This document shows, piece by piece, positions 7,042 through 22,860 of a DNA stretch of 36,135 bases; position 1 is the stretch's first letter, and each line of letters opens with the position of its first letter. Source of the DNA: Emcibacteraceae bacterium (lineage in GTDB: Bacteria > Pseudomonadota > Alphaproteobacteria > Sphingomonadales > Emcibacteraceae); assembly GCA_905612225.1 (NCBI GenBank), contig CAJQRG010000063.1, positions 1 to 36,135 on the forward strand, given 5' to 3'. The position numbers and the translations under genes were made by a program. The notes under the pieces are model-generated. The model saw nothing but the letters and a program-made list of their open reading frames with translations. It did not search any database and had not been told where the DNA came from.

Positions 7042-8241
7042 CTAAACTCGTTCGATAACCATGGCAATACCCTGACCAACCCCCACACACATCGTACAGA
7101 GGGCTCGCTTTCCTCCTGTCCTCTCTAGTTGATTGACTGCTGTTATTATAAGGCGAACTCCACTCATACCGAGAGGGTGACCGAAGGCAATAGCGCCCCC
7201 CTGAGGGTTAATGCGTGGGTCATCATCAGATATGCCAAGAGTTCGAGTACATGCAAGGACCTGTGCTGCAAAGGCCTCATTAAGTTCAAGTATATCCATA
7301 TCATTCAAGCTTAAACCAAGTCTGGTAAGCAACTTTTGACTGGCAGGAACTGGGCCAATGCCCATAGTCCGCGGTGGTACACCAGAAACGGCCATACCTA
7401 TGATCCGAGCACGCGGGGTAAGCCCATGTTTATGGGCTGCATTTTCCGAAGCAATAAGGGTCGCAGCAGCACCATCATTTATACCAGACGCATTTCCGGC
7501 AGTAACTGTTCCGCCTGCAAAAATAGGGCGGAGTTTAGCTATTTTTTCCATAGATGATACACGTGGATGCTCATCTTGATCTACAATGATGGGATTATTT
7601 CTTTTTTGTGGAACAGTAACAGCTATTATTTCCTTAGCTATGTAACCTTCTGCGATAGCAGCTGCAGCTTTTTTTTGACTCCAAAACGCGAACTTATCCT
7701 GATCTTCCCGACTTATTCCTAACTCATTTACAAGATTTTCAGCAGTTTTTGGCATTACGTCAGTGCCAAAGGCATTATCAAATTTTGTATTGATAAACCG
7801 CCATCCCATTGTTGTATCTTCCAGTTTTTGGATGCGTCCAAAAGGAGTTTCTGATTTTCCCATAACAAAAGGAGCACGGGACATACTTTCAACGCCACCA
7901 GCAATCATTAATTCACCCTCAGAGGCCACTATTGCATTGGCGGCAATGCCGATCGCATTAAGACCAGAACCACACAATCTATTCACGGTAGTTGCGGCAA
8001 CTTCCTGAGGAAGACCAGATAGTAATGCTGCCATTCTACCGACATTACGGTTATCTTCACCAGCCTGATTGGCACAGCCATAAACAACATCATCAACAGC
8101 TTCCCAATCAACATTTTTATTTCTTTCCATTAACGCCGAAATAGGAACTGCTGCAAGATCATCAGCGCGAACAGCAGCAAGACCTCCACCATAGCGGCCA
8201 ACCGGTGTGCGAATTGCATCACAAATAAAAGCGTCTTTCAT
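7042..8241 (-). CDS. pcaF: 3-oxoadipyl-CoA thiolase-like acyltransferase (PcaF type)
   Basis: A 399-aa thiolase of normal length. The nucleophilic Cys is in NRLCGSGLNAI (about residue 90), and the C-terminal half carries NEAFAAQ, GGAIAFGHPLGMSG (catalytic His) and CMCVGVGQG (second Cys). The N-terminal run YGCANQAGEDNRNVGRMA is typical of PcaF/PaaJ beta-ketoadipyl-CoA thiolases rather than of acetoacetyl-CoA thiolases. The expected reaction is thiolysis of 3-oxoadipyl-CoA, or a related 3-oxoacyl-CoA, to acetyl-CoA and succinyl-CoA. It is the last gene of a five-gene minus-strand operon and starts 11 bases after the aminotransferase gene. No protocatechuate- or catechol-branch genes accompany it, so its 3-oxoacid probably comes from the aminotransferase upstream. 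Confidence 0.85.
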   Translation of the reverse strand: MKDAFICDAIRTPVGRYGGGLAAVRADDLAAVPISALMERNKNVDWEAVDDVVYGCANQAGEDNRNVGRMAALLSGLPQEVAATTVNRLCGSGLNAIGIAANAIVASEGELMIAGGVESMSRAPFVMGKSETPFGRIQKLEDTTMGWRFINTKFDNAFGTDVMPKTAENLVNELGISREDQDKFAFWSQKKAAAAIAEGYIAKEIIAVTVPQKRNNPIIVDQDEHPRVSSMEKIAKLRPIFAGGTVTAGNASGINDGAAATLIASENAAHKHGLTPRARIIGMAVSGVPPRTMGIGPVPASQKLLTRLGLSLNDMDILELNEAFAAQVLACTRTLGISDDDPRINPQGGAIAFGHPLGMSGVRLIITAVNQLERTGGKRALCTMCVGVGQGIAMVIERV

Positions 8242-8252
8242 AAATCCGTCCT

Positions 8253-9560
8253 TTAAAATTGGTTTTTCATTTTATTCAATCCACCAAGCACTGCCTCGGC
8301 AAGTCTATCAATTTCTTTTTCAGCCATCACGGTAGAAAGCACACCAGAGCATGTATTTATCATCATAATACCATCATCAAACAAATGATTAAGTAGTGTT
8401 TTAGTTAGTATTTTTTCACGTTGATTAACATAACCATCACGGTAACTTGATGGTTCCTCTGATTTCATATGAACACGGAACATTGAACCAGCACCTGTAA
8501 CACAAGCAGGCACATCAGCAATATTTATTGCCTCACGAATTGATTTTCTTGCATAATCAGCAAGTAAATTAATTTTGACCAGCGCCTCCTTATCAAATAA
8601 ATCCATTGCCACCCGGCCTGCGGTCATTGTGATCGGATTAGCAGAGAATGTACCAGAATGAGGAAATAACACTTTTTCAGTCAAGGGGTTCATTACATCC
8701 ATTACATCAGCTCGGCCAGCAAGGGCACCCACAGGAAAGCCGCCACCAATCATTTTACCCATGGCAGTAAGATCCGGGTTTATGCCCTCAAACCATTCTT
8801 GAGCTCCGCCATAATTCATGCGGTAGGTAATGACTTCATCAAATACCAGCAAGCTATCATTTTTACGTGTCCAATTATAAACAGCACGAACAAAATCTTC
8901 TTTTGCAGGAATAAGACCAATGCGGTGAGGAAGAAGATCTAGTACTACACACGCAAGATTATCGGCATTTTCATCAAGAATTTTTATGGCCCGTTCCGTA
9001 TCATTAAAAGGGATTATTACCACATCATCAAGTGCAGACTGAGGTGTACCATGGGCAACTGGAACGCTACTTGGGCTATCAGCATCGCCCCAATTGTCTG
9101 GTTTTGATGTTTGACTTACCTCAGCGTAATCATAAAGGCCATGATAAGCACCTTCAGCTTTGGCAATTTTTGACCGTCCAGTAAATGCACGCGCTGCTTT
9201 AAGACAACTCATCACCGCCTCAGTACCAGAATTCACAAAACGCATTTTTTCAAAGCTGTCACTTCTGTTAACTATATGTTCAGCGTAAAGCACTTCCGCT
9301 TCAGTACCAATTGTGAAGGCGGTGCCTTTAGCTAACTGAGCTGCAACAGCTTCAGTAATAGCCGGGTGTGCGTGTCCGTGAATAAGTGAACACATATTAT
9401 TAGCAAAATCGACGCGCTCAACCCCTTCAATATCCGTTACATAACAGCCCTCACCTTTCTCAACGTAAAGGGGGTGTGGTTTTTTAAGGATCGTATTACG
9501 ACTGCAGCCACCAGGCATTACTTTAAGACCACGATCATATAAATCTGAACTTTTTGACAT
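8253..9560 (-). CDS. Class-III PLP aminotransferase, GSA-aminomutase/beta-amino-acid aminotransferase-like
   Basis: A 435-aa fold-type I class-III aminotransferase. Visible motifs are FVNSGTEAVMSC (PLP phosphate), LVFDEVITYR (Asp to PLP N1) and the Schiff-base lysine in AMGKMIGGGFPVGA. Overall it resembles glutamate-1-semialdehyde aminomutase and the beta-phenylalanine aminotransferases of Variovorax and Mesorhizobium, including the N-terminal MPGGCSR region, where the latter place a substrate-binding Arg. The second substrate Arg of those enzymes (near the C-terminus) is not obvious here; the aligned segment reads INTCSGVLST. In this operon it lies between an aminomutase that makes beta-amino acids and enzymes that activate and cleave 3-oxoacids. 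I infer that it deaminates a beta-amino acid to a 3-oxoacid. A heme-biosynthetic role is unlikely in this context. Confidence 0.8.
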   Translation of the reverse strand: MSKSSDLYDRGLKVMPGGCSRNTILKKPHPLYVEKGEGCYVTDIEGVERVDFANNMCSLIHGHAHPAITEAVAAQLAKGTAFTIGTEAEVLYAEHIVNRSDSFEKMRFVNSGTEAVMSCLKAARAFTGRSKIAKAEGAYHGLYDYAEVSQTSKPDNWGDADSPSSVPVAHGTPQSALDDVVIIPFNDTERAIKILDENADNLACVVLDLLPHRIGLIPAKEDFVRAVYNWTRKNDSLLVFDEVITYRMNYGGAQEWFEGINPDLTAMGKMIGGGFPVGALAGRADVMDVMNPLTEKVLFPHSGTFSANPITMTAGRVAMDLFDKEALVKINLLADYARKSIREAINIADVPACVTGAGSMFRVHMKSEEPSSYRDGYVNQREKILTKTLLNHLFDDGIMMINTCSGVLSTVMAEKEIDRLAEAVLGGLNKMKNQF

Positions 9561-9572
9561 TTTTATTCTCCT

Positions 9573-10223
9573 TTAAACTGCAATAAGCCTGCAGCCTGTT
9601 CTTTCTTGAACATATTCAAAACTAACGCCAGGGGCGAGCTCGATAATCTTAAACCCAAGTGGCGTTACATCAATAACAGCGAGGTCAGTGTATATTCGCT
9701 TCACCACACCAACACCAGTAAGCGGAAATGTACATTTACCTACTAGCTTAGGGTAACCTTTATTAGTAACATGCTGCGATATAACATTAATGATTTTAAC
9801 GCCAGCTACTAAGTCCATAGCGCCTCCAACCGCAGGAATAGAGTCAGGATTACCAGTGGACCAATTAGCAAGGTCACCATTTTCAGCAACCTGCATTGCA
9901 CCAAGAACACAAATATCAATATGATTACCACGGATCATCGAAAAACTATCTGCATGATGAAAATACGAGGCGCCTGGAACTGCAGTAACTAATTTTTTTC
10001 CGGCATTAATTAACTCAGGATCCTCTTGACCTTCTTTGGGAGCGTCTCCCATGCCAAGTAAACCGTTTTCTGTATGGTAGATCACTTCGCGGCCTTCAGG
10101 TACATAACGAACAACTTTTTCTGGAATTCCAATACCCAGGTTCACATATGCACCATTAGGAATGTCCTGTGCTGCTCGTTCCGCCATTTGATCTCGGCTC
10201 CAGCCAATATTTTGCTCACTCAT
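9573..10223 (-). CDS. pcaJ: 3-oxoacid CoA-transferase subunit B (PcaJ-like)
   Basis: A 216-aa beta subunit of a family I CoA-transferase. The catalytic glutamate is in HTENGLLGMG (about residue 52), and GLGIPEKV-type and AVGGAMDLVAG motifs are present (here YVNLGIGIPEKV). Family I enzymes pass CoA from succinyl-CoA to a 3-oxoacid through a glutamyl-CoA thioester. It starts inside the end of the alpha-subunit gene (ATGA overlap, four bases) and ends 12 bases before the aminotransferase start. Length and the partner sequence favour 3-oxoadipate CoA-transferase (PcaIJ) over AtoDA or SCOT, but substrate choice among 3-oxoacids cannot be fixed from sequence alone. Confidence 0.85.
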   Translation of the reverse strand: MSEQNIGWSRDQMAERAAQDIPNGAYVNLGIGIPEKVVRYVPEGREVIYHTENGLLGMGDAPKEGQEDPELINAGKKLVTAVPGASYFHHADSFSMIRGNHIDICVLGAMQVAENGDLANWSTGNPDSIPAVGGAMDLVAGVKIINVISQHVTNKGYPKLVGKCTFPLTGVGVVKRIYTDLAVIDVTPLGFKIIELAPGVSFEYVQERTGCRLIAV

Positions 10224-10930
10224 GGATAAACCTCCCCAGCTGAAACAAGCACAGATTCGAGCAGTGGATTAGATATTATTACTACCTGATCAACAAAAAC
10301 ACCGGGAGTGACCACCACCTCAGGATCAATATCACCAATCGAAACAAACTCTTTTGTTTGAACGATCGTGTTCTCTGCAGCCATGGCCATAATTGGAGCA
10401 AAATTCCGTGCTGTTTTATTGTAAATAAGATTACCGTAACGATCCGCCTTAAGACATTTAATCAACGCAAAGTCTGCAGTAAGGCCGTATTCAAGAACGT
10501 AGTCACGTCCGTTAATATTACGAACCTCTTTGCCGTCAGCAAGAGGGGTACCAACAGACGTTGCAGTGTAAAATGCGGGGACACCAGCTCCGCCAGCACG
10601 TATGCGCTCGGCGAGCGTTCCTTGCGGAACTAATTCAAGTTCAATTTCATTTTTTCTGTAAAGATTAGGAAAGACGAGTGAATTTGCTGATTTTGGAAAT
10701 GAACAAATCATTTTAGCAACACGCTTATTTTCTATTAGTGCAGCTAGCCCCACATGGCCTGAACCCGTGTTATTATTAATAACAGTCAGGTTTTTAGCAC
10801 CTTGATCAATCAACCCATGAATTAGTTCGATGGGACTTCCCGCCTCACCGAAACCTCCTATCATAACAGTTGCGCCATCATAAATTTTTGACACAGCAGC
10901 TTCGACCGAGCTTACTTGTTTATTAATCAT
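10220..10930 (-). CDS. pcaI: 3-oxoacid CoA-transferase subunit A (PcaI-like)
   Basis: A 236-aa alpha subunit of a family I CoA-transferase. It has the CoA-binding glycine-rich stretch GATVMIGGFGEAGSPIELI, then LTVINNNTGSG, ICSFPKSANS, VPQGTLAERIRAGGAG, and NKTARNFAPIMAMAA near the C-terminus. This closely follows PcaI of the beta-ketoadipate pathway as I recall it. It is the second gene of the operon, 20 bases after the KamA-family gene, and is translationally coupled to the beta subunit. Together they should form a cytoplasmic heterotetramer activating a 3-oxoacid with CoA from succinyl-CoA. Confidence 0.85.
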   Translation of the reverse strand: MINKQVSSVEAAVSKIYDGATVMIGGFGEAGSPIELIHGLIDQGAKNLTVINNNTGSGHVGLAALIENKRVAKMICSFPKSANSLVFPNLYRKNEIELELVPQGTLAERIRAGGAGVPAFYTATSVGTPLADGKEVRNINGRDYVLEYGLTADFALIKCLKADRYGNLIYNKTARNFAPIMAMAAENTIVQTKEFVSIGDIDPEVVVTPGVFVDQVVIISNPLLESVLVSAGEVYP

Positions 10931-10950: not shown

Positions 10951-12363
10951 CTAGGCTTTAATATCAAAGAGACCTGCTTCATCATAAATGACGCGATCTT
11001 TATATCCATCAAACCAAATAGCATCAGGGTTGCGACCAACAATGGCAACCTGACCTTTTTTGGGCGCATCCTTTGATGAACGCAACACTTTAAAAATTAC
11101 TACACCATTCTCACCACCGGGGACGCCCTCCATTGGCTCATTTGTCACGGCAGCAACTTCTGTTTTTCCGTAATAATGGGTAATAGAAAGACGAGCGTGT
11201 GCTTCAACGCCAGATAGACCGCGCTGCGATGTATTAAGAAGGTTCCATGCCTCTTCAATGGGTACATTAAATGCTTTATGCCCAACAATATCACGGCCAC
11301 AGAAAAAATAATGGTTTTCAACTTTATTGCGGCGTAGCTCTCGCTGCATAATGCGAAGTGCGTCAGCATCATTATTTATATTTTTAATAATAGGCGATTG
11401 ATTATCAACAGTTATAAAACCGCGTTTGCCAAACTCATTAATCGCGCGTTTCGTAGCATCAACCCACTTAAGTCCACCGCCAGGAAGATCTATAAAATTA
11501 CCATCTTTGTCTTTTTCTAGAAACTCGTCAGGATGATTAAAGTGGATCATGAAACGAAGTTTTGTTTCTGGATATGATTCATGAAAACTATCAACCATTT
11601 TAAAGAAGCTATCATCAAATCTTTGGGGGAAGAAAGCTAGTTCTTTGGTGCCCAAACGAATACTTTCTATACCCGCTTCTGCAAGAGCACCCCACCATGA
11701 GGCAATCCCTTTATTAGCAAGAACCATCGGATCACCGCCAGACATAAGAATTTCGCGGAGTTTTTCACGGCCAGTTTCTGGGTGAATTCCCCCAGCCTCT
11801 TCAACCAATCTATTGTGTTCTAAAATATACTCAACAAGATCAGGAATTTGAGCGAGGCCTTTAGCTTGGATTGAACCGTCTTCACGGACGATCTCTTTCT
11901 TGGCTATAAGTTCTTCACGGTAGCAAAAACGGCAATGAGCAGAGCATGTGCCAGCCACATAGATTAGACCAAGTTCGTACTTATGAATAAGGCCTTCAAT
12001 AGGACTATAACTCATTTGTTTACCTGGGTCTTCCGAACCATCAAGGTCAAAGGTTTCTTTGGGGCTAGCTTTAATAAGTGTACGAATAGAGTTACTTACA
12101 CGGGCACGCTCAAAATAATGTCGGGTCATTTTTACTGGCATACGAGCTTCGAGGTCACGATTTGTGCCTTTTAAATTAGCAATAGCATCGATCTCCTCTT
12201 GGCTGTAAAAATCTTTCATATCATCATCAACTTTTCCATCAACAAATTTTTTAAGGCCAGAAACAATACCTCTGTCATATTTAGCATTTTCTATCTTTGC
12301 AAGGAATTCTGCTTCCCGGTCGGATGGAATATGTTTTTTTCTAATTGGCTTTTGTACATTCAT
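10951..12363 (-). CDS. KamA-family radical-SAM 2,3-aminomutase, substrate probably acidic
   Basis: A 470-aa radical-SAM, PLP-dependent aminomutase of the lysine 2,3-aminomutase family (classical enzymes about 416 aa). The Fe-S/SAM motif is C140SAHC144RFC147. Other family blocks are LMSGGDPMVL, LGTKELAFFPQR, MIHFNHPDE and DNQSPIIKNIN; the PLP lysine is K400 in YYGKTEV. R149, two residues after the last Cys, matches the substrate-carboxylate Arg of lysine aminomutase. By eye, Asp293 of the clostridial enzyme, which binds the lysine side-chain amine, is R357 here (CGRDIVGHKAF), and Asp330 is not Asp. Glutamate 2,3-aminomutase likewise has a basic residue at the first position. The call is 2,3-aminomutase of an acidic amino acid (glutamate or 2-aminoadipate). 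It heads the operon with CoA-transferase, aminotransferase and thiolase. It is too long, and in the wrong context, for the EF-P enzyme EpmB. Confidence 0.8.
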   Translation of the reverse strand: MNVQKPIRKKHIPSDREAEFLAKIENAKYDRGIVSGLKKFVDGKVDDDMKDFYSQEEIDAIANLKGTNRDLEARMPVKMTRHYFERARVSNSIRTLIKASPKETFDLDGSEDPGKQMSYSPIEGLIHKYELGLIYVAGTCSAHCRFCYREELIAKKEIVREDGSIQAKGLAQIPDLVEYILEHNRLVEEAGGIHPETGREKLREILMSGGDPMVLANKGIASWWGALAEAGIESIRLGTKELAFFPQRFDDSFFKMVDSFHESYPETKLRFMIHFNHPDEFLEKDKDGNFIDLPGGGLKWVDATKRAINEFGKRGFITVDNQSPIIKNINNDADALRIMQRELRRNKVENHYFFCGRDIVGHKAFNVPIEEAWNLLNTSQRGLSGVEAHARLSITHYYGKTEVAAVTNEPMEGVPGGENGVVIFKVLRSSKDAPKKGQVAIVGRNPDAIWFDGYKDRVIYDEAGLFDIKA

Positions 12364-12497
12364 AATAGATGTTCCCTATTTACGTTGTTTTTACTTTATA
12401 AAGACTTTAGTGTATATTACCAAAACTCACGTTTTTAAATTACTAAGAATAAATAATTAATCTAAATTACATAACTACATTCAATTTAACAACTAAT

Positions 12498-12511
12498 ACT
12501 TATGCATAAGT
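12498..12511. promoter_or_regulatory. 14-bp perfect palindrome in the LysR/kamA-like divergent promoter
   Basis: The sequence ACTTATGCATAAGT is its own reverse complement. It lies in the 163-base intergenic region between the divergent aminomutase operon and the LysR gene, four bases before the GAGGT ribosome-binding site of the LysR gene. Symmetrical sites of this kind in divergent LysR promoters are typical activator/autoregulation sites. Its closeness to the LysR start suggests autorepression as well. No convincing -35/-10 pair could be fixed for either direction. Confidence 0.5.
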
Positions 12512-12526
12512 TGATGAGGTTTAGTA

Positions 12527-13432
12527 ATGGAAATGATAAAAATGTTACGTCAACGAAGACTTATACCTAGCACTAGCATGTTAATGGCATTTAATGCATC
12601 TGCTCGAAACAATAGTTTTACGGAAGCGGCTAAAGATCTCAACCTGACCCAAGGCGCTATAAGTCGACAGGTAAATGCACTTGAGCTGCAACTTGGTGTT
12701 AAATTATTTTACAGAATAAAAAAATCAATAAAACTTACGGAAGTTGGTAAAATATATGCTAAAGAAATTAATAACGCACTTAAAAGTATCCGTAACGCGT
12801 CTCTAAGCGCAGTAAGTGACGTTCATGGGCAAATACTTAACCTTGCTATTTTACCAACGTTTGCAACACGATGGCTGATGCCTAAATTTCCAAAATTTCT
12901 TGAAAAAAATCCACAAATTACGATTAATTTTACTAGTAAGCTATCACCTTTTGATTTTTCTGAGGAAAGTCTCCATTCAGCTATTCACTTTGGTCACCCA
13001 GACTGGCCCGGAACAGTGGGTACTTTTTTAATGAATGAAGAAGCGGTTCCAGTTGCTGCACCATCATTTATGGGAAACCACACCGTTCGTAATATAGATG
13101 AAATTCAGAGTATGCCCCTCCTACATCTTGAAACCAGACCCAATGCTTGGCCAGGCTGGTTTGAACAAAACGGTCTAACTTCGCCTACCGACAGGGGGAT
13201 GATCCTCGAGCAGTTTTCTATGGTAACTCAGGCTGCCATCGCTGGAATGGGAGTTGCTATGCTTCCCCACTTTCTTATTAAAACCGAACTGGAACGTGGA
13301 GAACTTGAAATTTTAATGGATATACCACTTCAAAATAGCGCTGGATATCACCTTATTACTCCAAAAAACTATAATAATTATGCGCCTGTTGTAGCGCTTC
13401 GCAACTGGCTACTTGAACAAGTTATAGTTTAA
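12527..13432 (+). CDS. LysR-family transcriptional regulator (GcvA-like)
   Basis: A 301-aa LysR-type regulator. The N-terminal winged helix-turn-helix is at about residues 20-80 (NNSFTEAAKDLNLTQGAISRQ as recognition region, then LEQLG-type LELQLGVKLFYR), followed by a periplasmic-binding-protein-like effector domain. The ATG has GAGGT six bases upstream. It is transcribed divergently from the aminomutase/CoA-transferase/thiolase operon, so it is most probably that operon's regulator; its effector may be the amino acid degraded or a pathway intermediate. Its stop codon overlaps the stop of the convergent GST-like gene by two to four bases, so there is no room for a terminator. Confidence 0.9.
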   Translation: MEMIKMLRQRRLIPSTSMLMAFNASARNNSFTEAAKDLNLTQGAISRQVNALELQLGVKLFYRIKKSIKLTEVGKIYAKEINNALKSIRNASLSAVSDVHGQILNLAILPTFATRWLMPKFPKFLEKNPQITINFTSKLSPFDFSEESLHSAIHFGHPDWPGTVGTFLMNEEAVPVAAPSFMGNHTVRNIDEIQSMPLLHLETRPNAWPGWFEQNGLTSPTDRGMILEQFSMVTQAAIAGMGVAMLPHFLIKTELERGELEILMDIPLQNSAGYHLITPKNYNNYAPVVALRNWLLEQVIV

Positions 13433-14070
13433 ATGGCGTCCGGTTGGTTTTCTGGCACAGCCTCTTCAAAGGCTCGAATTCTCAAACATTCCTCGTTAAT
13501 TCTTAAAATTGTTGGATAGTCAGAAAGATTACATTTAAATCTATTAGCGTTATAGACTTGGGGGACTAAAAGGCAGTCTGCTAAACTAGGTTTGTCACCG
13601 TGGCAGAATAACCCTGTTTCTTGCTCAGTCGATAATTTCTTTTCAAGCGCGGTAAAATCCTGTTTTACCCAATGGTGATACCATAGGGTTACACCATCTT
13701 GATCAAAACCATTTTTTAAATACTTAAGAATTCTTAAATTCAAAAGTGGATGTATCTCACAGGCAATAGCATATGAAATAGATTGAATTCGAGCCCGTTC
13801 ATCAGGATCCTTAGGAAGTAATCTGTAATTAGGGGATATATAATCAAGGTATTCCAAAATCGACATAGACTGAGAAATTACCTTACCATTTACTTCCAAC
13901 GTAGGAACAAGGCCCTGCGGGTTCTTACAAATAAATTCTTCAGTTTTATGTTCATCCTTGGACAGTGCATAATTTTTTTGTTTATAACTCAGCCCTTTTA
14001 AATTCAAGCCAATTCTCACCCTATAAGAAGCTGAACTCCGCCACATACCATGTAAAATAATGTCAGACAA
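13429..14070 (-). CDS. Zeta-class GST: maleylpyruvate/maleylacetoacetate isomerase
   Basis: A 213-aa glutathione S-transferase of the zeta class. The catalytic N-terminal motif WRSSASYRVRIGLNLKG is diagnostic, followed by NPQGLVPTLEVNG and QSMSILEYLD (GSH gamma-glutamyl site). These enzymes isomerise maleylacetoacetate or maleylpyruvate to the fumaryl form using glutathione. The start is probably TTG at 14070: it has GGAGA six bases upstream and gives the usual N-terminus before WRSSASYR, whereas the next ATG (14046) begins right at that motif. It overlaps the upstream hydrolase gene by eight bases. The coupled partner is a short FAH protein of fumarylpyruvate-hydrolase type, so maleylpyruvate (gentisate pathway, NagL-like) is the preferred substrate. 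Confidence 0.85.
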   Translation of the reverse strand: MSDIILHGMWRSSASYRVRIGLNLKGLSYKQKNYALSKDEHKTEEFICKNPQGLVPTLEVNGKVISQSMSILEYLDYISPNYRLLPKDPDERARIQSISYAIACEIHPLLNLRILKYLKNGFDQDGVTLWYHHWVKQDFTALEKKLSTEQETGLFCHGDKPSLADCLLVPQVYNANRFKCNLSDYPTILRINEECLRIRAFEEAVPENQPDAI

Positions 14071-14749
14071 TTTTTGTCTCCAATTCAGTTAGGCCCTCAA
14101 TACCAACTCGAATTACATCACCTTTCATAATAGGACCCACACCTTCAGGTGTTCCAGTATAAATGAGATCGCCAGGCATTAACGTAAATAATGTAGACAA
14201 GTTTGCAATAACTTCTGGTACCGACCAAATTAATTTATTTATATTACTATCCTGCTTGATATCTCCATTCACAGTGAGCCAAATACGAGAATTTTCGATG
14301 TCAGAAATCTGATTTATTGGGTGGATTTCAGCACAAGGTGCCGAATGATCAAAGGCTTTGCTTGCGTCCCAAGGCCGACCTTTTAATTTTGCTGCTGATT
14401 GAAGGTCCCGACGCGTCAAGTCATTGCCAACTGCATATCCATATACATGTTGAAGAGCATCCTCTCTTTTTACATCTTCACATTCTTTTCCAATTGCAAC
14501 AACAAGCTCGGCTTCAAAATGAAAGTTATTTGTTTTGGGTGGGTAAGGTATAGAAACCCTACTATCAACCACAGCATCATTTGGTTTTGTAAAGTAAAAT
14601 GGCAATTCGCAATCAGGATTATGACCCATTTCACGGGCGTGTGCAGCATAATTTCTGCCAACGCAGAAAATCCGCCGGACTGCAAAGCGGTCGTCACTTC
14701 CGTGGATGGCAACACTTGCAGGAGTGGGAGTATCAAAAATATAATTCAT
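14063..14749 (-). CDS. Fumarylacetoacetate-hydrolase family protein, fumarylpyruvate hydrolase-like
   Basis: A 228-aa FAH-superfamily hydrolase. Its short length and features fit NagK-type fumarylpyruvate hydrolases rather than the roughly 420-aa fumarylacetoacetases. Visible are CVGRNYAAHAREMG, PFYFTKP, the metal-ligand stretch FHFEAELVVAIG, YAVGNDLTRRDLQ, KAFDHSAP and TGTPEGVGP. The metal-dependent C-C cleavage would give fumarate plus pyruvate. The gene lies between the flavin-reductase/MarR fusion gene (104-base gap) and the coupled isomerase gene, all on the minus strand. No gentisate 1,2-dioxygenase is in the window. Confidence 0.8.
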   Translation of the reverse strand: MNYIFDTPTPASVAIHGSDDRFAVRRIFCVGRNYAAHAREMGHNPDCELPFYFTKPNDAVVDSRVSIPYPPKTNNFHFEAELVVAIGKECEDVKREDALQHVYGYAVGNDLTRRDLQSAAKLKGRPWDASKAFDHSAPCAEIHPINQISDIENSRIWLTVNGDIKQDSNINKLIWSVPEVIANLSTLFTLMPGDLIYTGTPEGVGPIMKGDVIRVGIEGLTELETKIV

Positions 14750-14853
14750 AAACTAAAAATCCTAATTTTACTTTTATTTATTTTGCGATCATCACCCATA
14801 ACCGTAGAGCTTTTTGCAACGGACGATCTAAATAACTAAATAAGACAAAGTGA

Positions 14854-15780
14854 TCATACATCTTGACGATCTATGATTTTTTTCAACATAGATTTAAGCA
14901 TATCAACGTCCTCATTACTGTAACCGTCAAGTACTTCTTTTTCTAGTCTCTGGGCCCGGCGTTGAACATCTTTTAAGTGTTCATTACCTGCTTGTGAAAG
15001 AGCAAGTTGATCATTGTTGAGTTTGTTTAAATAGCCATTATTACATAACCAAGCTACTGATTTAGTTACAGCTGCAATATCAATGCGAATTGCCTTACTT
15101 AAATCAGCCTTAGTTAGATTAGGAGAATGACTAAGGTGCACAATGATACGTGCATGAGCAATGGGCATTCCCTCATCTTGAAGTTCCCGATAAAATGGAT
15201 CTGAAATTTCCCAGTAGCTACGTAATAAAAGTGGCACAATGAAATCATCTTTTGAGGAGACATCTTTACCTTCTGGTACTGACATTTTTACTGCTGGGTG
15301 ACGAGCTGCTACTGTGTATTGACCATTCGTATATAGAAGTGGCTTTTTGTTGCTAGTCTTGAAGTGCTCAACTTCACCAATAAAAATAAGATGATCCCCG
15401 CCTTCATAAGTACTAATATTTTTACATTCAAGATGGGCAACGGTGCCAGAGAGTAAAGGAAGATTACATTTACTCTCTAAAAGTTCAATATTATTGAATT
15501 TATTTTCACTAGTCCTAGCAAAATTATTTGAGATATCCATCTGATCAGATGCCAGAACATTAACAGCAAAATGCGGGGCGGCTATAAAGGCACCAATACT
15601 TTTAGATTTTTTATCGAGGCTCCAAAGCACCATAGGTGGCTCAAGGCTCAGACTGCTGAATGAGTTCACCGTCAGACCAATTTTAGTGCCATCAGGTGCA
15701 AGCGCAGTGATAACCGTAATTCCTGTTGCAAATTTTCCAAAACAATTTCTTAGTACTTTTATATCAATATTTTTTATCAT
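14854..15780 (-). CDS. Flavin reductase fused to a MarR-like domain (HPAH C1-type reductase)
   Basis: A 308-aa two-domain protein. Residues 1 to about 165 form a flavin-reductase domain of the HpaC type (FATGITVITA, GLTVNSFSSLSLEPP, VNVLASDQ, HLIFIGEVE). Residues about 185 to 305 resemble a MarR winged helix (LTKADLSKAIRIDIAAVTKSVAWLC and an adjacent wing-like segment). This architecture and length match the reductase component C1 of Acinetobacter baumannii 4-hydroxyphenylacetate 3-hydroxylase, where the MarR-like part binds the aromatic substrate and controls flavin reduction. It probably supplies reduced FMN or FAD to a two-component aromatic hydroxylase. No oxygenase gene is nearby; downstream are ring-fission-product isomerase and hydrolase genes. 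The substrate is unknown. Confidence 0.8.
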   Translation of the reverse strand: MIKNIDIKVLRNCFGKFATGITVITALAPDGTKIGLTVNSFSSLSLEPPMVLWSLDKKSKSIGAFIAAPHFAVNVLASDQMDISNNFARTSENKFNNIELLESKCNLPLLSGTVAHLECKNISTYEGGDHLIFIGEVEHFKTSNKKPLLYTNGQYTVAARHPAVKMSVPEGKDVSSKDDFIVPLLLRSYWEISDPFYRELQDEGMPIAHARIIVHLSHSPNLTKADLSKAIRIDIAAVTKSVAWLCNNGYLNKLNNDQLALSQAGNEHLKDVQRRAQRLEKEVLDGYSNEDVDMLKSMLKKIIDRQDV

Positions 15781-20782: not shown

Positions 20783-20859
20783 ACATTGTTTATAATTATT
20801 CTATAGTTTACCTTATCATTTAATGAAAATAATTTGTTGTTTAAGAAGTGGAAATTGTT

Positions 20860-21918
20860 ATGACTAAAAAAGTAGCAAACGACCTTAATCTTGTGCCATT
20901 CGTCAGTGTAGACAATATGATGAAAATTGTTCTGGAAATTGGTATTGAAGAAGTTCTAATCGGAATAGCAAACTACCTAGAAGTTGACTTCAAACGATGG
21001 GAACTTTTTGATAAGACACCACGTGTAGCTTCACATTCTAATGAGGGCGTCATTGAATTGATGCCTACCAGCGACGGTCAAGTTTACGGATTTAAATATG
21101 TAAATGACCATCCTAAAAACACAAAAGATGGCCTTCAAACCGTGACTGCTTTTGGTGTACTTTCGGATGTTGAAACGGGTTATCCCGTTATGCTCTCTGA
21201 AATGACGATCTTAACAGCCCTCAGGACAGCGGCAACTTCAGCTATGGCTGCAAAATACTTGATGCCAAAAAAATCCAAGATGATGGCGATGATTGGAAAT
21301 GGAGCTCAATCAGAGTTTCAAGCACTTGCGTTTAAGGCTATTTGTGGAATTGATGAGCTTAGACTTTACGATATTGATGGCGAGGCCACTGACCGCTGTA
21401 TGAAAAACTTAACTGGATTTGGCATAAATATGGTCAAATGTTCCAGCGAACAAATAGCTGTTGAAGGAGCAGACATAATTACTACTGTAACAGCCGACAA
21501 ACAATGCGCCACAATCCTTACTGATAATATGGTTGGTTCAGGAGTACATATTAATGCCATCGGCGGTGACTGCCCAGGCAAAACCGAATTACACAGAGAT
21601 ATTCTTCTTCGCTCAGAGATATTTGTCGAATACCCACCGCAGACACGTATTGAAGGAGAAATTCAGCAGCTTGACGACGACTACCCAGTAACTGAATTAT
21701 GGCAGGTAATGACTGGGAAAGCAGAAGGCCGCACAAAGGAAAAACAAATTACTCTATTTGATAGCGTTGGTTTTGCAATCGAAGATTTTTCAGCCCTGCG
21801 TTATATTCGCGATCAATTGGAAAAAACAAAACAGTTCCAAAATCTGGATATGGTTGCTGACCCTGATGAGCCACGTGATTTATTTGGTATGGTTTTACGC
21901 GCTAAGGAAGCCAAATAA
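20860..21918 (+). CDS. ocd: Ornithine cyclodeaminase
   Basis: A 352-aa member of the ornithine cyclodeaminase/mu-crystallin family, normal length. It shows FVSVDNMMKIVLEIG at the N-terminus, the substrate stretch YGFKYVNDHPKN, the conserved LSEMTILTALRTAATSAMAAKYL, and the Rossmann nucleotide-binding MAMIGNGAQSEFQALAFKAI followed by LYDID. It converts L-ornithine to L-proline plus ammonia with bound NAD. I prefer ATG 20860 to the GTG four codons earlier. The next gene, 15 bases downstream, encodes a CtlX-type citrulline hydrolase, so the two make a citrulline to ornithine to proline route. A divergent Lrp-family gene is the probable local regulator. Confidence 0.9.
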   Translation: MTKKVANDLNLVPFVSVDNMMKIVLEIGIEEVLIGIANYLEVDFKRWELFDKTPRVASHSNEGVIELMPTSDGQVYGFKYVNDHPKNTKDGLQTVTAFGVLSDVETGYPVMLSEMTILTALRTAATSAMAAKYLMPKKSKMMAMIGNGAQSEFQALAFKAICGIDELRLYDIDGEATDRCMKNLTGFGINMVKCSSEQIAVEGADIITTVTADKQCATILTDNMVGSGVHINAIGGDCPGKTELHRDILLRSEIFVEYPPQTRIEGEIQQLDDDYPVTELWQVMTGKAEGRTKEKQITLFDSVGFAIEDFSALRYIRDQLEKTKQFQNLDMVADPDEPRDLFGMVLRAKEAK

Positions 21919-21933
21919 TCGAGGATCTTTAAA

Positions 21934-22860
21934 ATGAACAAAAGAAGCGCCCAAGCACCCGCAGCAGTAATTATGATCCGTCCTCATCATTTCTTACCAA
22001 ACCAAGAAACAGCTAAAGACAACGCTTTTCAAAAAAATGGTAGCGGCTTAAATTCATCTGAAATGGCAAAATCTGCTTATACAGAAACAACAAATGTTGC
22101 TAACAAACTCACCTCTTTTGGAATCAAAACTCATATATTTGAGGATGAGAGCAGGAAAAGTCCCGATTCAGTTTTTCCAAATAATTGGTTTTCCACTCAC
22201 CCAGGTGGTCATATTGCTATATATCCAATGTACCCAGAAAATCGTCGTCTTGAACGCCGGCATGATGTCATTGAGATGCTTAAAAGAAATTATCGTGTCC
22301 AAGATGTTATCGATTATTCAGGGCTCGAGCCTGATGGTCTATTCCTAGAGGGCACTGGCGCAATGGTTCTTGATCATATAGACCGTGTCGCTTATGCAGT
22401 TCGATCAAACCGAACTAATCCAGTGGCCCTTGAACGCTTCTGCACTCATTTTAATTATGAGCCGATGGTTTTTGATGCTGTTGATGATAATAGAAATCCA
22501 GTTTACCACACCAACGTGCTTATGTGCATAGCTACAGATTTCGTCATGATATGTCTCGATATGATTACTGACAGTGCTCGCCGTTTAGAAATAGAAGAAC
22601 GTTTTACGCGCTCAGGACGTCAAATAATAGCACTCTCTATAAAACAAATTAAAAACTTTGCTGGAAATGCACTTGAATTACAGGGCAATAAAGGTCGTAT
22701 ATTAGCCCTTTCTAGCGTTGCCTTAAAAGCGCTAAGTCCGAAGCAGAAAGCAATGATTGAACAAAGCACAACAATACTGCCTCTTGATATCCCTACTATA
22801 GAACTGGCTGGTGGTTCGGTGCGCTGTATGCTAGCCGGAGTTCATTTGTCACCCCGGTAG
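21934..22860 (+). CDS. ctlX: Citrulline utilization hydrolase CtlX-type (amidinotransferase superfamily)
   Basis: A 308-aa guanidino/ureido-modifying enzyme of the pentein fold. Core residues are visible: FPNNWFSTHPGG (81-92), LEGTGAMVLD (138-147), the catalytic His in YHTNVLM (H192) and the catalytic Cys near the C-terminus in GGSVRCMLAG (C298). This pattern marks the arginine-deiminase-related CtlX family, which hydrolyses citrulline to ornithine. The neighbour ornithine cyclodeaminase would then yield proline. GAGGATC lies just ahead of the ATG, and the genes are 15 bases apart. Arginine deiminase or dimethylargininase activity cannot be excluded from sequence, but the ocd pairing supports citrulline. 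Confidence 0.85.
   Translation: MNKRSAQAPAAVIMIRPHHFLPNQETAKDNAFQKNGSGLNSSEMAKSAYTETTNVANKLTSFGIKTHIFEDESRKSPDSVFPNNWFSTHPGGHIAIYPMYPENRRLERRHDVIEMLKRNYRVQDVIDYSGLEPDGLFLEGTGAMVLDHIDRVAYAVRSNRTNPVALERFCTHFNYEPMVFDAVDDNRNPVYHTNVLMCIATDFVMICLDMITDSARRLEIEERFTRSGRQIIALSIKQIKNFAGNALELQGNKGRILALSSVALKALSPKQKAMIEQSTTILPLDIPTIELAGGSVRCMLAGVHLSPR

Follow-up and report, generated by a model that had tools for sequence, protein, structure and literature searches.

Which amino acid is rearranged by an enzyme that carries the catalytic machinery of lysine 2,3-aminomutase and lacks the residues by which lysine would be recognized? This question is raised by a gene on contig CAJQRG010000063.1 of an Emcibacteraceae bacterium, the entire 36,135 nucleotides of which constitute the window analysed here. 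The gene occupies positions 10951..12363, as an earlier note drawn from the sequence had placed it, and is read from the minus strand, where it forms an open frame of 470 aa; translation of the plus strand over the same interval meets 12 stops. On the evidence of its open reading frame, profile searches, and alignments, the product is a PLP-dependent radical SAM 2,3-aminomutase that probably acts on 2-aminoadipate, and we designate it a predicted 2-aminoadipate 2,3-aminomutase.

Catalytic residues and the side-chain pocket

The catalytic set of the mutase is intact, with every residue at the position read from the translation in the earlier note. In a MAFFT alignment, the CxxxCxxC radical SAM cluster motif (C140, C144, and C147; 11923..11946, minus strand, as for all codons given here) pairs with C125, C129, and C132 of clostridial lysine 2,3-aminomutase (KAM), while R149 (11917..11919) pairs with Arg134, the residue for the substrate alpha-carboxylate, and K400 (11164..11166) with the PLP lysine, Lys337. 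The presence of the cysteine motif, the carboxylate arginine, and the PLP lysine in KamA order places the protein in the KamA-type radical SAM aminomutase superfamily in the broad sense.

The side-chain pocket departs from that of the lysine enzyme, in which Asp293 and Asp330 hold the side-chain amine of the substrate. Opposite Asp293 stands R357 (11293..11295), a pairing returned by MAFFT and independently by phmmer and hhalign with no gap nearby, and opposite Asp330 stands S393 (11185..11187), which is the non-acidic residue expected there within the stretch LSITHYYGK. The region of K400 was left unaligned by hhalign, and the pairing of S393 with Asp330 draws on MAFFT and the GK(T) motif, S393 lying seven residues ahead of the PLP lysine with the same spacing as in KAM. 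The KAM sequence supplied to MAFFT and hhalign agrees with the PDB-chain stretches in the phmmer output. Both R357 and S393 are invariant across 17 mutase homologs from Alphaproteobacteria, Chloroflexota, and Planctomycetota, and the replacement of the aspartates is therefore not a matter of chance.

A direct comparison with KamA/AblA of Clostridium subterminale (2A5H) summarizes these relations. The two proteins share radical SAM and PLP chemistry, the cysteine motif, the PLP lysine, the alpha-carboxylate arginine, and the order of motifs, whereas the mutase has Arg357/Ser393 in place of Asp293/Asp330 and is only ~21% identical in the hhalign alignment. It is also 54 residues longer (470 aa against 416), in keeping with the earlier estimate of about 50, and its only cysteines are at 140, 144, 147, and 355, so that the zinc-type C-terminal cysteine cluster is missing, as had been claimed. 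An AlphaFold2 model, for which the alignment was the 17-member mutase family, reached a mean pLDDT of 63, with the active-site half below 50, and a search of viral contigs for more diverse homologs of the mutase found none.

Placement among aminomutase families

Every curated model of the known families was missed by a wide distance: AblA (TIGR03820) gave 67.7 bits against a cut-off of 525.4, glutamate 2,3-aminomutase (TIGR04368) 81.7 against 650, arginine 2,3-aminomutase (TIGR04468) 81.2 against 600, EpmB (TIGR03821) 79.1 against 369.3, and the KamA subfamily (TIGR00238) 86.3 against 199.2. At the two side-chain amine positions, R357 and S393 stand where lysine 2,3-aminomutase has Asp at both and EpmB has acidic residues at both (D/E in Escherichia coli EpmB itself). 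Asp/Asp or Asp/Glu was found in six lysine-type proteins, namely KAM, Fusobacterium KamA, three AblA-like proteins, and E. coli EpmB; every other KamA-like relative that was examined has Arg at the first position and Ser, Ala, Val, or Ile at the second. A maximum-likelihood tree of KamA-like, AblA-like, and EpmB proteins, in which some long branches were flagged, splits the lysine-type and Arg-type sets with full support and places the mutase outside the lysine-type group; its family forms one group (100/99) on the Arg side. The suspicion that a generic "lysine 2,3-aminomutase" label is wrong is thus upheld by the loss of both aspartates and by the model scores.

The same comparison tempers what can be read from the arginine. 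From a basic residue at this position, the earlier note had deduced a substrate with a terminal carboxylate. The type of substrate is supported, the operon described below pointing on separate grounds to a dicarboxylic beta-keto acid of six carbons, but the arginine is not particular to the mutase. Among the aligned proteins, Arg at the Asp293 column is the mark of a broad clade. Its presence speaks against lysine but does not single out any substrate, and because that clade is found in other gene contexts, the residue is weak evidence of the exact substrate.

R357 alone cannot tell glutamate from 2-aminoadipate, and an enzyme converting glutamate to 3-aminoglutarate (beta-glutamate), a product that would then be broken down through 3-oxoglutarate or retained as an osmolyte, has to be weighed. 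Glutamate 2,3-aminomutase carries Lys and Asn at the two side-chain positions; the mutase resembles it in having a basic residue opposite Asp293 and, presumably, an acidic substrate, and Arg could hold the 5-carboxylate of glutamate. It differs in having Arg for Lys and Ser for Asn and in its gene context, which would be expected to be another. We consider this reading unlikely, given that the TIGR04368 model is so widely missed, that an osmolyte role would leave the downstream transaminase, CoA-transferase, and PcaF unexplained, and that PcaF and the pca-type CoA-transferases indicate 3-oxoadipate and not 3-oxoglutarate. The operon favours 2-aminoadipate.

The operon and its predicted pathway

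Four further genes follow the mutase on the minus strand. Subunit A of a 3-oxoacid CoA-transferase of the PcaI/ScoA family (10220..10930; TIGR02429, 347 bits, cut-off 128.5) overlaps by 4 bases with subunit B of the PcaJ/ScoB family (9573..10223; TIGR02428, 293.6 bits, cut-off 243.55), and these are followed by a class III aminotransferase (8253..9560), assigned by profile and by matches to the sequences of solved structures, and by a 3-oxoadipyl-CoA thiolase, PcaF (7042..8241; TIGR02430, 665.8 bits, cut-off 597), whose nearest solved structure, 6PCA, is a beta-ketoadipyl-CoA thiolase. With all five genes on one strand and gaps of 20, -4, 12, and 11 bases from the mutase to the thiolase, a single transcript is likely. 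A divergent LysR-type regulator (GcvA-like by profile; 12527..13432, plus strand), conserved ahead of the mutase gene in most of the alphaproteobacterial loci, borders an intergenic region (12364..12526) that from its position is a likely promoter and operator. In each of the ten genomes of the genus in which a close PcaF was found, the window's own genome included, the operon copy was the sole one.

The aminotransferase falls below the cut-off of the GSA aminomutase model (324 bits against 527.3) and has as its closest solved relative 6K8H (375 bits), the transaminase StoTA of Sphaerobacter thermophilus, which acts on beta-amino acids and was tested on beta-homoalanine, beta-leucine, and beta-phenylalanine-type substrates (PMC10589169). 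As its nearest characterized relative acts on beta-amino acids, the fourth gene is a putative beta-amino acid transaminase.

Taken together, a mutase, a beta-transaminase, a CoA-transferase, and a thiolase would convert an alpha-amino acid to a beta-amino acid, then to a beta-keto acid, and finally to two acyl-CoAs. PcaF fixes the beta-keto acid as 3-oxoadipate, from which we infer that the amino acids are 3- and 2-aminoadipate. In the mechanism that we propose, Arg357 and Arg149 would pair with the 6-carboxylate and the 1-carboxylate of 2-aminoadipate, respectively; the 5'-deoxyadenosyl radical would abstract the hydrogen at C3, and the PLP-bound amino group would move from C2 to C3, yielding 3-aminoadipate. 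The transaminase would convert 3-aminoadipate to 3-oxoadipate, the CoA-transferase would activate this to 3-oxoadipyl-CoA, and PcaF would cleave it to succinyl-CoA and acetyl-CoA. It appears fairly likely that this constitutes a previously undescribed route of lysine/2-aminoadipate degradation, in which a radical SAM mutase makes 3-aminoadipate, joins the beta-ketoadipate pathway, and bypasses 2-oxoadipate, and that the mutase belongs to a large clade of Arg-type KamA-like proteins, some of them labelled lysine 2,3-aminomutase, that act on substrates other than lysine.

A set of mutase, transaminase, CoA-transferase, and thiolase also fits the logic of the beta-lysine pathway, to which the yod operon of Bacillus subtilis belongs, with kamA beside transaminase and CoA-transferase genes. 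That the window holds a true lysine 2,3-aminomutase feeding such a pathway is nevertheless very improbable: both lysine-binding aspartates are missing, the tree sets the mutase apart from the lysine-type group, the cluster has no gene for a beta-lysine acetyltransferase or deacetylase, and PcaF is not the thiolase to be expected.

Two other gene groups of the window may be recorded here. Adjoining the operon at 13429-15780 is an aromatic degradation group of maleylacetoacetate isomerase, fumarylacetoacetate hydrolase family, and p-hydroxyphenylacetate hydroxylase reductase-like genes, and at 20848-22860 two genes, one of the ornithine cyclodeaminase family and after it one of the dimethylarginine dimethylaminohydrolase family, make up a small pair for amino acid degradation.

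The cluster in other lineages

All five genes are kept in most loci of sufficient length from Kordiimonadaceae and Emcibacter; in some, the transaminase and CoA-transferase genes are convergent beside the mutase, and a few consist of the mutase and regulator alone. In Chloroflexota, the mutase and transaminase occur together, and neither a CoA-transferase nor a thiolase adjoins the mutase in these loci. In Pirellulaceae, too, the mutase and transaminase are found together, and a few genes upstream of them lie a CoA-transferase and a thiolase of generic type, the latter scoring 245 bits against the PcaF model (cut-off 597). The mutase is rare, being present in one of 400 Chloroflexota genomes surveyed, and no close homolog outside its own genome was found in 398 evenly drawn Pseudomonadota genomes.

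An independent lineage is represented by a conjugative plasmid of a cultured isolate, Mesorhizobium sp. 113-3-3, on which the mutase is followed by fdxA, the transaminase, and a CoA-transferase. Its mutase (WP_199202193.1), annotated "hypothetical protein," is 69% identical to that of the window and its transaminase 63% identical, and the fdxA product is a plausible electron donor for the radical SAM enzyme. The CoA-transferase is of a different subfamily from the window's, but complete pca operons of Chelatococcus and Methylocella contain, with pcaGH on one side and pcaF on the other, a pair to which its subunits are 76-83% identical. The family to which the window's CoA-transferase belongs is found in other bacteria within a cat operon and adjoining pcaF. 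Thus, two different 3-oxoadipate-type CoA-transferases stand beside the same mutase and transaminase, which provides the strongest argument for the predicted substrate. In the sequence record, the Mesorhizobium CoA-transferase alpha gene (L171:18208-19052) is spread over three reading frames and is absent from the gene table, and it is either disrupted or carrying sequence errors.

These arrangements also bear on whether the mutase might have another substrate, such as an aromatic amino acid or leucine (which would become beta-leucine), with the pca-type genes as passengers of an aromatic degradation locus. StoTA, the relative of the transaminase, takes beta-leucine and beta-phenylalanine, and the genes at 13429-15780 would supply such a locus. 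We regard this as quite improbable, because the invariant pocket arginine suits a hydrophobic side chain poorly, because both of the CoA-transferase subfamilies that accompany the mutase in different lineages are linked to 3-oxoadipate, and because the g3 relatives carry the mutase without any intradiol dioxygenase. The predicted operon shares with the lower beta-ketoadipate pathway (PcaIJ and PcaF) its 3-oxoadipate CoA-transferase type enzymes and 3-oxoadipyl-CoA thiolase; in contrast to that pathway, it would be fed by an aminomutase and a beta-transaminase and not by ring-cleavage genes.

Among the side observations, the neighbourhood of the Tistrella CoA-transferase contains no mutase. In relatives (L076:2448-5911 and L093:11166-14614), a group of 3-hydroxyanthranilate-type degradation genes, called by eye as decarboxylase, dioxygenase, deaminase-like, and aldehyde dehydrogenase, is located near the operon.

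Possible supply of 2-aminoadipate and competing routes

The predicted substrate would derive mainly from lysine, first by way of saccharopine or through an enzyme like lysine 6-dehydrogenase, and then by the action of 2-aminoadipate semialdehyde dehydrogenase. Consistent with a degradative role, two adjacent saccharopine dehydrogenase genes, whose products resemble LYS1 (253 bits to 2Q99) and LYS9 (150 bits to 1E5L) of yeast, are present in 13 of 17 related mutase-bearing genomes, the adjacency having been read directly in three genomes and from match positions in most others; in one relative (G019), the pair lies ~10 kb from the mutase. In the remaining four genomes, the Sacchrp_dh_C protein belongs to a different class, is closest to 3ABI, and may be a lysine 6-dehydrogenase-like enzyme. 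An ALDH7-type dehydrogenase motif was found in 16 of the 17 mutase-bearing genomes against three of six family members that lack the mutase (Fisher p = 0.04, uncorrected for the relatedness of the genomes), and one such protein (in G012) is nearest to 6DBB and the semialdehyde dehydrogenase Pcd and matches alpha-aminoadipic semialdehyde dehydrogenase (4X0T) with 515 bits. The saccharopine route, comprising LYS1-like, LYS9-like, and ALDH7-type genes, is thus a feature of the mutase-bearing relatives; neither the pair nor ALDH7 was found in the window's own genome, which is 54% complete. Lysine 6-aminotransferase was above the cut-off in 0 genomes, and in other phyla the mutase was not seen clustered directly with genes for lysine breakdown. 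A further saccharopine-dehydrogenase-family protein, again nearest to 3ABI, lies inside a histidine-utilization cluster beside an SNF-type transporter at L095:8843-9916, L096:8879-10009, and L097:8409-9530.

With respect to competing routes, a protein search found glutaryl-CoA dehydrogenase orthologs in most mutase-bearing alphaproteobacteria, which may therefore possess a second 2-aminoadipate route, the mutase route being an addition there. The idea that the mutase fills a glutaryl-CoA dehydrogenase gap in alphaproteobacteria was rejected on this account, a motif scan having undercounted the gene; the Pirellulaceae genomes yielded no ortholog, and there the mutase may fill such a gap.

Intradiol dioxygenase-like genes occur throughout the genus, and PcaF and the CoA-transferase may therefore serve aromatic degradation as well; in the g3 relatives with the mutase, no such dioxygenase gene was found. 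The dioxygenase-like genes of the genus could also supply 3-oxoadipate to a route running in reverse, in which it would be aminated and isomerized to 2-aminoadipate, both the aminomutase and transaminase reactions being reversible. Such a direction is so improbable as to be nearly negligible, considering that the CoA-transferase and thiolase of the same operon would drain 3-oxoadipate and that the lysine genes in relatives are consistent with degradation. Paired intradiol dioxygenase-like genes, with scores under the protocatechuate dioxygenase cut-off, are found near a class III aminotransferase gene at G000:C6:39283-40549 and at equivalent places in nearly every genome of the genus.

Relation to known lysine catabolism

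The published lysine routes consulted pass through 2-oxoadipate (PMC7286885), from which carbon proceeds to 2-hydroxyglutarate by HglS or to glutaryl-CoA. The proposed degradation of 2-aminoadipate is like these in breaking lysine down to the six-carbon dicarboxylic level and unlike them in first shifting the amino group to C3. The combination of aminomutase, aminoadipate, and 3-oxoadipate was not found in the open-access literature searched, a body of text to which subscription journals are mostly external, and neither was 3-aminoadipate by that name; under other names, it occurs there in two papers, a meteorite study and, as a single mention, a review of lysine-derived precursors. The chemistry of the mutase is accordingly familiar, and what would be new, judging from sequence and gene context, is the predicted substrate and the predicted pathway. 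If the prediction is true, radical SAM aminomutases would gain a new substrate and 2-aminoadipate a further route of disposal, running through 3-aminoadipate, a compound without an enzyme in the open-access literature searched. The mutase could also provide beta-amino dicarboxylic acids, and the Mesorhizobium isolate, with the genes on a conjugative plasmid, renders the pathway idea testable.

Arg-type aminomutases elsewhere

The contrast of Asp/Asp or Asp/Glu with Arg at the Asp293 column provides a simple rule by which likely wrong "lysine 2,3-aminomutase" labels may be flagged, for example on rhizobial plasmids. A protein so annotated on a Rhizobium etli plasmid (L172:3887-5029) has Arg/Ile and no lysine-binding aspartates, which makes the label doubtful; similar annotations are found on other rhizobial plasmids, the R. 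etli protein being the one that was checked. KamA-like proteins of 360-526 aa from Pseudomonadota (L070:7928-9508, L071, L072, L073, L074, L075, and L077) have Arg at the Asp293 column and Ser, Ala, or Val at the Asp330 column, and the gene of the first adjoins a class I-like aminotransferase gene, called by eye. On a plasmid of Streptomyces sp. NBC_01431 (L174:3620-4924), the gene of an Arg/Val aminomutase stands immediately after that of a non-ribosomal peptide synthetase, which suggests that the aminomutase makes a beta-amino acid for incorporation into a natural product.
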